Both the position numbers and the translations under genes were made by a program. DNA of 32,491 nt from Vulcanimicrobiota bacterium (GTDB taxonomy: Bacteria > Vulcanimicrobiota > Vulcanimicrobiia > Vulcanimicrobiales > Vulcanimicrobiaceae), in assembly GCA_028287525.1 (NCBI GenBank), contig JAQBPM010000266.1:1-32491 (forward strand). Direction: 5' to 3'. Below the pieces are notes generated by a model. It made no database searches, was not told where the DNA came from, and saw nothing but the letters and a program-made list of their open reading frames with translations. Positions 18,520 to 28,200 of this stretch are shown in pieces (position 1 is the first letter of the stretch; each line of letters starts with the position of its first letter).

Positions 18520-19263
18520 TTAGTCGAACATCACGCCGCCGTCGACGGTGAGCGTTTCGCCTTGGACGTACGACGAACGAGGCGAGAGCAGCCACGCGAT
18601 CGCCTCGGCGATCTCGCTCGGTTCGGCGGCGCGGCGAAGCAGGATGCCGGCCGCGATTCGCGCCTTCCGGTCGGCGTCGGCGAACGCGGAATCAGTCATC
18701 GGCGTGAGGGTTGCACCGGGCGCGACGCAGTTCACCGCGATGCCGCGCTCCGAGAGCACGCGCGCGGCGTTGCGCGAGAGCGCGAGGACGGCGCCTTTGG
18801 TGGCCGCGTATGCCGCGGTGCCCGAGAGTCCGCCGCCGCGTTTTCCGGCGATGCTCGCGACGGTGCAGATGCGTCCCCCCGGCCGCATGCGCTTGGCCGC
18901 CTCGCGGATGCAGAGGAACGTACCGATCACGTTGACGTCGTGGATGCGGCGAAACGTCGCAAGGTCGATCTCCATGAACGGCGTCACGTCGCAGATCCCC
19001 GCGGAGGTCGCCAGCGCGTCGAGCGTTCCGTCAAACGCCTCGCACGCACGCTCGAACAGCGCGACGACCGACGCTTCGTCGGAAACGTCGACGTGAAACG
19101 CGAGCCCGTCGATGTGGTGCGCGACCGCTTCCGCCGCCGCGAGATCGCGGTCGGCGACCGCGACGTGGTAGCCGTCCTTCGCCAGCAGCTCGCACACCGC
19201 GCGCCCGATCCCGCTGCCCCCGCCGGTGACAATCGCGCTGGGCGGGTTCTCGCCGAACCAGAT
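18520..19263 (-). CDS. SDR family oxidoreductase; no canonical start codon covers the full N-terminus
   Basis: Frame reads IWFGENPPSAIVTGGGSGIGRAVCELLAKDGYHVAVADRDL...AAYAATKGAVLALSRNAARVL...SSYVQGETLTVDGGVMFD. The ORF track starts at GTG 19197, which removes the TGGGSGIGRA cofactor motif; an in-frame TAA lies at 19264-19266. Confidence 0.85.
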   Translation of the reverse strand: MWFGENPPSAIVTGGGSGIGRAVCELLAKDGYHVAVADRDLAAAEAVAHHIDGLAFHVDVSDEASVVALFERACEAFDGTLDALATSAGICDVTPFMEIDLATFRRIHDVNVIGTFLCIREAAKRMRPGGRICTVASIAGKRGGGLSGTAAYAATKGAVLALSRNAARVLSERGIAVNCVAPGATLTPMTDSAFADADRKARIAAGILLRRAAEPSEIAEAIAWLLSPRSSYVQGETLTVDGGVMFD

Positions 19264-19268
19264 TTAAC

Positions 19269-19377
19269 GGCGCTCCGCCCTAGGCTCCGCGCCCCCCACG
19301 CCTAGGGCGTGGGGCCCCCGGGTTCGACCTCGCAACAACGTGGTCGCACGTGAAGGAGTACCCTGCGCTCGGTCCAT
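19269..19377 (-). repeat. Hairpin-containing dispersed element, copy A (109 bp)
   Basis: GGCGCTCCGCCCTAGGCTCCGCGCCCCCCACGCC-TAG-GGCGTGGGGCCCCCGGG...CTGCGCTCGGTCCAT; matches 28083-28188 at both ends. Minus frame: MDRAQGTPSRATTLLRGRTRGPHALGVGGAEPRAERR then TAA. Confidence 0.85.
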
Positions 19378-19579
19378 GACCGGGGTCTTGGCTGCAGGCG
19401 GGCATTTCCATTGCGTTCTTGGGAGCAGTTGGGTCGGGGGGCTGGCCTTGCGCCCTGAGATGGGTGGGCTCGGGAGGCGTCAAGTCTTTTCACGGCCGGT
19501 GCTCGATCATGCAGGAACGTTTCCTGGAAGTGACTGAAGTCGCATTCAAAACTCAGCATCGTCCCAGGAGCATTAGCCC

Positions 19580-26211: not shown

Positions 26212-28188
26212 CTATTCCTCGAGGGTCGTCACGTCGCCGAGATCCTGACCGGTCTCCTGCGCTTTGAGCAGCCGGCGCATGATCTTGCCGCTGCGCGTCT
26301 TTGGGAGTTTCGCGGTGAAGCGTATCGCGGAGGGCGTCGCGATCGGGCCAAGCTCTTGGCGCACGTGCGCCACCAGCTCCGCCGCCAACGCGTCGGAGGC
26401 TTCGTATCCGCTGCGAACCACGACGTAAGCGACGATCGCTTCGCCTTTGATCTCGTCCGGGACGCCGCAGACGCCGGCTTCGCCGCAGGCGGGGTGCGAG
26501 ACGAGCGCGCTCTCGACGTCGGCCGTCGCGATGCGATGCGCCGCGACGTTGAGCACGTCGTCCGCGCGGCCGAGGATCGCGACAAAGCCGTCGGCGTCGA
26601 TCGTCGCGACGTCGCCCGCGACGTAGGTTCCCCACCGAAAATACTGCTTGTACCGGTCCTCGTCGTTCCAGACGGTGCTGAACATGTGCGGCTGGGCGTT
26701 CTCGATCACCAGCAGCCCGCCCAGACCGCCGCGCGGGATCGCGTTGCCCGCGCTGTCGCGCAGCGAGAAGGCATACGGTCCGAGCGCTTTCCCGCTGCGA
26801 TCCGGGCGCACGGCGGTGGTAGGGAAAAATCCGCACGCCGGCCCCGCGACCTCGGTCTGCCACCACTGGTTGTCGACGGCGACCCGGCCTCGGCCGATCG
26901 TCTCGTGGAGAAACCGCCACGCTTCGGGATTGAGGGGTTCGCCGGCGCAGAAGATCGCCTGCAGCGACGAGAGATCATACTGCGATGCCAGGTCGGGCCC
27001 GAGGCGCATCAGCATGCGCGCGAGCGTCGGCGCGGTGTAGAACTTGGTGACCCGGTAGCGCGCGATCGCGGCGTACACGGCGCCCGTGTCGGGAAAGTCG
27101 GCTGCCCCTTCGCGCAGGATGCAGCGATACCGGTTCGCGAGCGCGCCGTAGACCATCATCGTGTGACCGACGATCCAGCCGATGTCGCTCGTGCACCAAT
27201 AGGCGTCGTCCGGCGTGATCCCGGTCGTTTCGGCGAGCATCGCGCTGCAGCCGACCAGATATCCGCCGTGCGTCATCACGACGCCCTTCGGCTTCCCGGT
27301 GGTGCCGCTGGTGTAGAGCATGAACAGCGGATGTTCGGCGCCCACGATCTCGGGCTCGCACGCCGAAGGCTGAGCGTCGCAGTACGCGTCGAAATCGACT
27401 TCGCGTGCGTCGCCTGCGACCGTCGTTTCGCGGCGGTAGACGACGATGCGCCGCACGAGCGCGAGACCGCGCACCGCCTCGTCCGCGATCGACTTGAGAT
27501 CGAACGGGCGACCCTTGCGGTACGTGACGTCGCCGACGACGAGCACCTGCGCGCCCGCGTCGACGATGCGGTCGCGCAGCGCCGTAGCGCCGAGGCCCGC
27601 ATACACCACCGAGTGGATCGCGCCGATGCGCGCGCACGCGAGCATCGCGACGATCCCTTCGATCGTCAAGGGCATGTAGATGCAGACCCGGTCGCCGCGG
27701 CGCACGCCGTCGGCGCGCAACGCGTTCGCGAACTGTCCCACGCGCGCGAACAGCCCCGTGTAGGTGATCGAGCGCTCGGTGCCGTCCTCGCACAGGTAGT
27801 CGTACGCGACCGCATCGGGATGCGACGCGGCGTGACGATCCAGGCACGACACGGTCGCGTTCAGCCGCCCGTCCGCAAACCAATGCTGGTCGTCGATCGC
27901 GCCACTGAACACGGTTCGCGGCGGCGTCTCCCAAGCAATCCGCTTCGCACGCTCCGCCCAATACGCATCGGTGTCGCGCAGCGCGTCGGCGACATACGCG
28001 TCTTGATCCGCAATGGGAAACCACTGCTCCACGCCCGGCGGCGGCGGAACGATCTCACCCGTGGAAAGCAATCCAGTTACATGGCGCTCCGCCCCAGGCT
28101 CCGCGCCCCCCACGCTTTGCGTGGGGCCCCCGGTCCGACCTCGCAACGACCCCTCGGCAGCGGCACGATCGTTCTGCGCTCGGTCCAT
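26212..28188 (-). CDS. AcsA-like AMP-dependent acyl-CoA synthetase (start uncertain: ATG 28188 within the repeat, or TTG 28071)
   Basis: LFMLYTSGTTGKPKGVVMTHGGYLV; VDNQWWQTEVAGP; RWGTYVAGDVATIDADGFVAILGRADDVLNVAAHRIATADVE; PKTRSGKIMRRLLK. Confidence 0.9.
   Translation of the reverse strand: MDRAQNDRAAAEGSLRGRTGGPTQSVGGAEPGAERHVTGLLSTGEIVPPPPGVEQWFPIADQDAYVADALRDTDAYWAERAKRIAWETPPRTVFSGAIDDQHWFADGRLNATVSCLDRHAASHPDAVAYDYLCEDGTERSITYTGLFARVGQFANALRADGVRRGDRVCIYMPLTIEGIVAMLACARIGAIHSVVYAGLGATALRDRIVDAGAQVLVVGDVTYRKGRPFDLKSIADEAVRGLALVRRIVVYRRETTVAGDAREVDFDAYCDAQPSACEPEIVGAEHPLFMLYTSGTTGKPKGVVMTHGGYLVGCSAMLAETTGITPDDAYWCTSDIGWIVGHTMMVYGALANRYRCILREGAADFPDTGAVYAAIARYRVTKFYTAPTLARMLMRLGPDLASQYDLSSLQAIFCAGEPLNPEAWRFLHETIGRGRVAVDNQWWQTEVAGPACGFFPTTAVRPDRSGKALGPYAFSLRDSAGNAIPRGGLGGLLVIENAQPHMFSTVWNDEDRYKQYFRWGTYVAGDVATIDADGFVAILGRADDVLNVAAHRIATADVESALVSHPACGEAGVCGVPDEIKGEAIVAYVVVRSGYEASDALAAELVAHVRQELGPIATPSAIRFTAKLPKTRSGKIMRRLLKAQETGQDLGDVTTLEE
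28083..28188 (-). repeat. Hairpin-containing dispersed element, copy B (106 bp)
   Basis: GGCGCTCCGCCCCAGGCTCCGCGCCCCCCACGC-TTT-GCGTGGGGCCCCCGG...CTGCGCTCGGTCCAT; minus frame MDRAQNDRAAAEGSLRGRTGGPTQSVGGAEPGAERHV continues into the acyl-CoA synthetase. Confidence 0.85.
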
Positions 28189-28200
28189 CGCCTTTACGCC

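Follow-up and report, generated by a model that had tools for sequence, protein, structure and literature searches.

Short mobile repeats are normally tolerated by avoiding genes or, in Rickettsia, by extending proteins. The Rickettsia palindromic elements are inserted in frame (reviewed in PMC10969869). In class 1 integrons the stop codon of ORF-11 in attI1 lies inside the sequence GTTRRRY, and translation of the first cassette is coupled to it (PMC8876359); for the intrastrand triplex motif of E. coli no trend toward a specific distance from the ORF has been seen (PMC4666352). The element described here is present in two copies in the window, that is, the whole stretch of 32,491 nt of DNA that was analysed. 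Judged by analogy of behaviour, its nearest relatives would be the Rickettsia palindromic elements and the attI1 ORF-11 leader. The family, its structure, its position at genes, the pattern of gain and loss and the frame-matched stops were all shown by computation here.

Two copies in the window

The preliminary description reported two copies, 109 and 106 nt long, with common ends and hairpins, and in each of them a minus-strand frame that begins ATGGACCGAGCGCAG and is open through the element. When checked in the sequence all of this was confirmed, including the positions (Table 1). The frames, which had been taken as a clue, are indeed open, but this is weak on its own as most frames of such G+C-rich copies are open. 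On the minus strand both copies have the layout ATGGACCGAGCGCAG, a variable block, GTTGCGAGGTCG, GGGGG, the hairpins P2 and P3, and a short A/T-rich tail, and P3 is GGCGC-GGA-GCC-NNN-GGC-GGA-GCGCC in both.

The small ORF of copy A has 37 codons, and its stop codon, TAA at 19266-19264, is found just beyond the element. What follows, ATC TGG TTC GGC GAG, is the SDR gene. The orthologs of this gene in G001, G007 and G008 have the element at the equal position and an ATG start, reading ATG GAR TGG TTY. With ATC at 19261-19263, where the three congeners have ATG, the gene in the window possibly uses an AUC start, contains a sequencing error or is inactivated by a lost start. In copy B the frame meets no stop on its way from the element to acs and continues into the acetyl-CoA synthetase. 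The protein is either made from the fused frame (658 aa) or from a TTG start at 28071 (619 aa); relatives have a different N-terminus ahead of LLSTGE.

Table 1. Features of copies A and B and of their downstream genes in the window.
Feature	Position	Strand	Remark
Copy A, type A element, 5' of SDR gene	19269..19377	-	Model R1 match 19260-19382, E 1.8e-26
Small ORF of copy A, MDRAQGTPSRATTLLRGRTRGPHALGVGGAEPRAERR, TAA right before putative SDR start (ATC)	19264..19377	-	Coupling pattern
P1 of copy A, GACC/GGTC with tandem GA/GA internal loop	19326..19374	-	Column 11/56: C-G to G-C in 15/43
P2 hairpin of copy A, CCCCACGCC-TAG-GGCGTGGGG	19294..19314	-	
P3 hairpin of copy A, GGCGC-GGA-GCC-TAG-GGC-GGA-GCGCC, GNA/GNA internal loop	19269..19293	-	
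GGAG within P3 of copy A, Shine-Dalgarno-like	19273..19276	-	GGA predicted unpaired, last G paired
SDR-family oxidoreductase, 247 aa counted from ATC	18520..19263	-	
Copy B, type A element, 5' of acs	28083..28188	-	Model R1 match 28074-28193, E 3.4e-28
P2 hairpin of copy B, CCCCACGC-AAA-GCGTGGGG	28108..28126	-	
P3 hairpin of copy B, GGAG at 28087-28090	28083..28107	-	
Open frame, 658 aa, element ATG through acetyl-CoA synthetase	26212..28188	-	Small ORF fused in frame in copy B

Copy number and distribution

The element had been suspected to be a dispersed palindrome, and so it is, with many copies. In its own genome, an assembly of 4.5 Mb in 502 contigs that is 81% complete, the covariance models found 14 copies, nine of type A and five of type B, and blastn found 13 places. 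A pattern with 0–3 mismatches gave 12 places, as compared to 0 for the reversed control; the repetition is far beyond chance. Type B has NNCGCGCCCTCGGGGAATC...GAGCGCG in place of the 5' stem, and P2 and P3 are common to both types. Matches to model R2 are present in 68 of 149 Eremiobacterota genomes, 67 of the 68 belonging to the window's own family, a little-studied group of soil bacteria. The copy number is uneven, with a maximum of 36 in G005, 32 in G015 and none in the congener G002. When 84,980 bacterial and archaeal genomes were scanned with the exact pattern, 101 stretches were obtained, and among the matches listed all were from Eremiobacterota (WPS-2) except two contigs labelled only "bacterium". 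The viral contigs searched held no copies.

The Rfam search of the window gave no match above the gathering score, and at a permissive threshold no plausible family was obtained for 14 loci. We found neither a description of the element in the literature nor one of a covarying RNA family in Eremiobacterota. Since for each known family tested a defining feature is missing, we regard the element, about 110–125 bp long, as a new family, dispersed and non-autonomous, and as a new variant among small dispersed elements, one whose niche, the start codon, is unusual.

It was also possible to observe deviating copies. A third architecture, type C, has P2, P3 and GTTAAAC followed by another GGGGNCCCC hairpin, and is without P1. 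The type C loci (L102, L103, L121, L071, L085, L141, L153, L046 and L033) are mostly situated beside opposite-strand genes, and L103 has a tandem 96-bp repeat. In L044, L147 and L011 (C414:12147) a tandem duplication of the element's last ~15 bases (GGAGCGCCTTTAAAC) lies ahead of the start codon. In L065 the type B element is complete, and its own 5' end recurs behind it in inverted orientation; L097, L127 and L220 have kept P1 and P3 and carry a string of several unrelated hairpins in place of P2. The end of the copy at L131 adjoins a sequence that by eye resembles an opposite-strand tRNA gene (GAGAGATTCGAACTC), and not a protein gene.

Position at genes

Gene strands were called with a phase-specific Markov model, which replaced simple codon-table usage as this was too weak. 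The downstream gene was co-directional in 84 confident calls and opposite in 21, so the preferred orientation that the preliminary description had considered worth counting is there. In 62 of the 84 an in-frame ATG, GTG or TTG is found 0–9 nt past the end of P3, at exactly +6 in 40 and at +7 in 10. The junction is GCGCC-KTTARA-ATG, and the GGAG in P3 lies 10 nt ahead of the start. The genes behind the element in its own genome include fliG, ispD, moaA, thiL, cheR, ahcY, rpmJ, acs and those of an enoyl-CoA hydratase and the SDR protein.

The exceptions are convergent or antisense copies, and the opposite orientation makes up about 20% of the confidently called copies. The type B copy L016 (G000:C87 8064-8185) is antisense and lies in frame within dnaE, where it encodes RRSAPGSAPPTPTARGPQTPG...; the dnaE linker that holds it is 30–33 nt in four congeners. 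A second dnaE fragment, about 90% identical and without the element, was observed on G000:C54, and the assembly G000 may hold two strains or paralogs.

Structure and covariation

The structure alignments of 43 type A copies (A1) and 50 type B copies (A2) yield one common plan, P1-P2-P3. Covariation of the stems, which the preliminary description had suggested testing, was seen in both types. In type B 96.1% of the cells pair, and two-sided changes were found in 11 of the 20 pairs, including 6 of the 6 pairs in P1. The cells with two-sided changes were 109, as compared to 36 when shuffled; shuffles came up to the observed values for pair types alone (8 of 500), and the covariation signal was lost when the partner was slid. 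Type A has two-sided changes in 5 of 22 pairs, and its middle P1 pair (column 11/56) is C-G in 28 copies and G-C in 15, with no exception.

The internal loop of P3 is kept as GNA/GNA (GGA/GGA in 68, GCA/GGA in 44, and others), and in one copy the GCC/GGC of P3 is changed to GGC/GCC on both sides together. On the ATG strand G-U pairs are more frequent than C-A mismatches, for the most part at a single pair of P2, and this excess hints that the ATG strand is the transcript. The folding energy was no better than that of shuffled sequence (z -0.56 and -0.22), a measure that is uninformative at such G+C content.

The small ORF and its stop

In-frame fusion to the downstream gene was rejected as a rule, with 1 of the 24 type A copies that have an assignable start being open and in frame. 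An in-frame insertion translated within the host protein, which defines the Rickettsia palindromic elements and was the first reading of the preliminary description, is thus seen in single copies only, the acs fusion of copy B and dnaE. Nor do the copies differ in length by multiples of 3, as would be expected from that reading: the total lengths are spread over the three classes modulo 3, and the type A copies, 103–112 nt long, represent every class. The short reading frame appears biologically meaningful all the same, not as a general N-terminal extension but as a separate small ORF with its stop on the downstream start.

In copies that have a left start, and a downstream one at +6, the stop of the small ORF read from the left ATG is found 1–8 nt past the element in 14 of 17 type A copies and in 25 of 31 type B copies, as compared to 8.8 and 17.5 with shuffled right flanks. 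The coupling test was then widened to downstream starts at +5 to +9, using one copy per downstream gene (n=52). The stop was positioned at -5 to +1 of the downstream start in 39 of the 52, against 23.2 (sd 2.8) with shuffled flanks, and the two other frames, used as control, gave 7/52 each. For type A alone P was 0.0026, and for type B alone 0 of 5000 shuffles reached the value. A stop that overlaps or is adjacent to the next start, as in these 39, is one feature of a translationally coupled leader ORF. The type B start was picked by rule, as an ATG 9–24 nt 5' of the CC-GGGG motif with 15–16 preferred.

Stop and start meet in the forms TARAATG, AAATGA and TTTAAATG. The 3' half of the element is used in all three frames, with the endings GGAEPGAERR-TAG-A-ATG, GGRGAWGGAPSK (its stop within AAATGA) and AWGARSLGRSAV with TTTAAATG, and therefore it is the stop position that is conserved and not the peptide. 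A test of length modulo 3 gave P 0.002 for type A and was significant in a first, small type B subset. As no significance was reached once the type B set had been enlarged (111 copies, P 0.35), it was dropped as proof of the ORF, and the position of the stop, tested against shuffled flanks and control frames, was relied on in its place. About one fourth of the copies that have both a left and a right start are uncoupled, and no strong Shine-Dalgarno sequence was found ahead of the left ATG.

Gain and loss at orthologous sites

The junction between fliF and fliG is filled in G000 and G004, and empty in G002, G003, G005, G007, G008 and G009. At ispD there is a type A element in G000 and G001 and a type B element in G008; the other complete loci are empty and have an overlapping stop and start, e.g. 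GCGCGCATGATCTGG. The SDR site is filled in G000, G001, G007 and G008 and empty in G002, G004 and G006, and the rpmJ site is filled in G000, G003, G005 and G010, the rest being empty. Since sites are filled or empty among congeners, at these genes and at others, copies come and go. All four combinations of the SDR and rpmJ patterns are present, at odds with the genus tree and a single gain per site, and therefore recurrent gain or precise loss is needed.

In several of the filled sites there is still a start codon to the left of the element, at the place of the native start, as TAATG (SDR, G008), ATGA (ispD), GTGA (thiL, G000) and leader-ATG (rpmJ, G005). In front of glmS in G005 (L423, G005:C10:129600-130500) two complete type A elements follow in a row, with two consecutive small ORFs. 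ATGTGC was observed ahead of the second of these elements and again at the gene start after it; this is possibly a target duplication, and as such a single suggestive case. General target-site duplication was not supported, the agreement between left and right k-mers being not significant in two statistical tests.

Discussion

The element is probably best explained as a non-autonomous mobile element at start codons, which hands translation on by termination and reinitiation; we infer the translation of the small ORF, the reinitiation and the means of movement. Such an element would repeatedly come to sit at the start codons of genes within one Eremiobacterota family. When transcribed it would fold into P1, of which A and B are interchangeable forms, and into P2 and P3, with the GGAG of P3 near the downstream start. 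We propose that a ribosome starts at the left ATG, at several sites equal to the place of the native start codon, and reads the small ORF of ~35–40 codons, melting hairpins P1–P3 as it goes. It would then stop atop the start codon of the displaced gene, where the exposed GGAG of P3 may aid the restart. The translation of a gene cut off from its own leader would thereby be kept, or made conditional, and the element could be either a tolerated insertion or a regulatory device. Evenly balanced, in our judgement, is the more far-reaching claim of a mobile element that has the translation start as insertion niche, carries a structured, self-contained small ORF and passes the ribosome on to the gene it displaces; essential genes would thereby tolerate the insertion, and translation of many operons would come under one shared leader architecture.

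The preliminary description had offered a structured leader RNA as the alternative to an in-frame element, and on position and structure this was correct; the two readings are combined in the explanation preferred here. Taken alone, a class of cis-regulatory RNA, riboswitch-like or the target of a global RNA-binding protein, could have spread to many operons, with P3 hiding or presenting the GGAG and the ORF signal being secondary. The strong conservation of P3 with its GNA/GNA internal loop, the GGAG at the right distance and the covariation agree with such a class, as does the rpmJ site, where the element has been maintained vertically in four species and both sides of P3 have changed. We nevertheless consider it unlikely, as the downstream genes are unrelated (fliG, ispD, thiL, cheR, ahcY, rpmJ, acs, SDR), no Rfam family is matched, and it alone predicts neither stops matched to the frame of the small ORF nor antisense and intragenic copies. 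Somewhat less likely still is a plain mobile palindrome, a DNA hairpin of MITE or REP type that prefers AT-rich start-codon sites, its position and coupling reflecting only the purging of harmful insertions. The patchy filled and empty sites would be expected from it, and so would the variable copy number and the antisense, intergenic, partial and tandem copies. However, structure is kept after insertion by compensatory change, terminal inverted repeats are missing, and purging for coupling itself would be a form of the main explanation. The Y1 transposase of IS200/IS605 and RAYT (PF01797) was found in 1 of 11 congeners and is missing in the other 10, among them the own genome and the high-copy G001 and G005, and on the absence from these an origin from REP/RAYT was rejected. 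Membership among the MITEs does not agree with the consensus ends, which do not pair, nor with the non-significant k-mer agreement for a target duplication.

The tail also recalls integrons. Its consensus is KTTARAM, and as the stop of a small ORF it resembles the ORF-11 arrangement of attI1; if it is read as a recombination site of attC or attI type, the tail GTTARAY resembles GTTRRRY, with the stop at positions 3–5 and a start soon after. The first base of the tail, for which an integron core has G at the cleavage point, is T oftener than G (70 vs 56), the two ends of the element do not pair and there is no partner box. An integron integrase above cut-off was not found in the 11 congeners, the genes downstream are housekeeping genes, and no cassette arrays were seen. 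An integron origin is thereby largely refuted (mostly T as first base, no partner box, no IntI above cut-off), and we regard it as highly improbable.

If the coupled mobile element is the true explanation, it represents a third way of living in a compact genome, where the start-codon position of housekeeping genes is taken repeatedly and the stop is fitted to the frame of the element. This would also imply a natural, repeated experiment on termination-reinitiation. The element gives Eremiobacterota a new family of covarying RNAs, and it can serve to mark genome dynamics there.

With MITEs and REP/BIME sequences the element shares that it is short, non-autonomous, dispersed and palindromic, with variable copy number and with antisense and tandem copies. 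It differs from them in having no terminal inverted repeats, no demonstrated general target duplication and no RAYT/Y1 transposase, and in its fixed distance from start codons as compared to mainly extragenic 3' positions. The likeness to ORF-11 and ORF-17 of attI1 is in the stop of a small ORF, often a TAG in GTTRRRY, by the next start, which in attI1 raises downstream translation via coupling (PMC8876359). attI1 is one fixed site beside an integrase and cassettes, whereas the present element is dispersed over dozens of structured copies, which lie at housekeeping genes and lack an integron integrase. Like the Rickettsia palindromic elements, the copies are dispersed palindromes of similar length that are able to lie in frame in coding sequence, here in acs (copy B) and dnaE. 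Contrary to them, most copies in Eremiobacterota are unfused, and their small ORF stands by itself and terminates on the following start codon; phylum and placement differ too, and the two are compared by behaviour. The succession of G-run, C-run and G-run (GGGGGCCCC...GGGG) in a dispersed repeat is also known from the intrastrand triplex motifs (PMC4666352), but in the Eremiobacterota element the distance is fixed at 6–7 nt.
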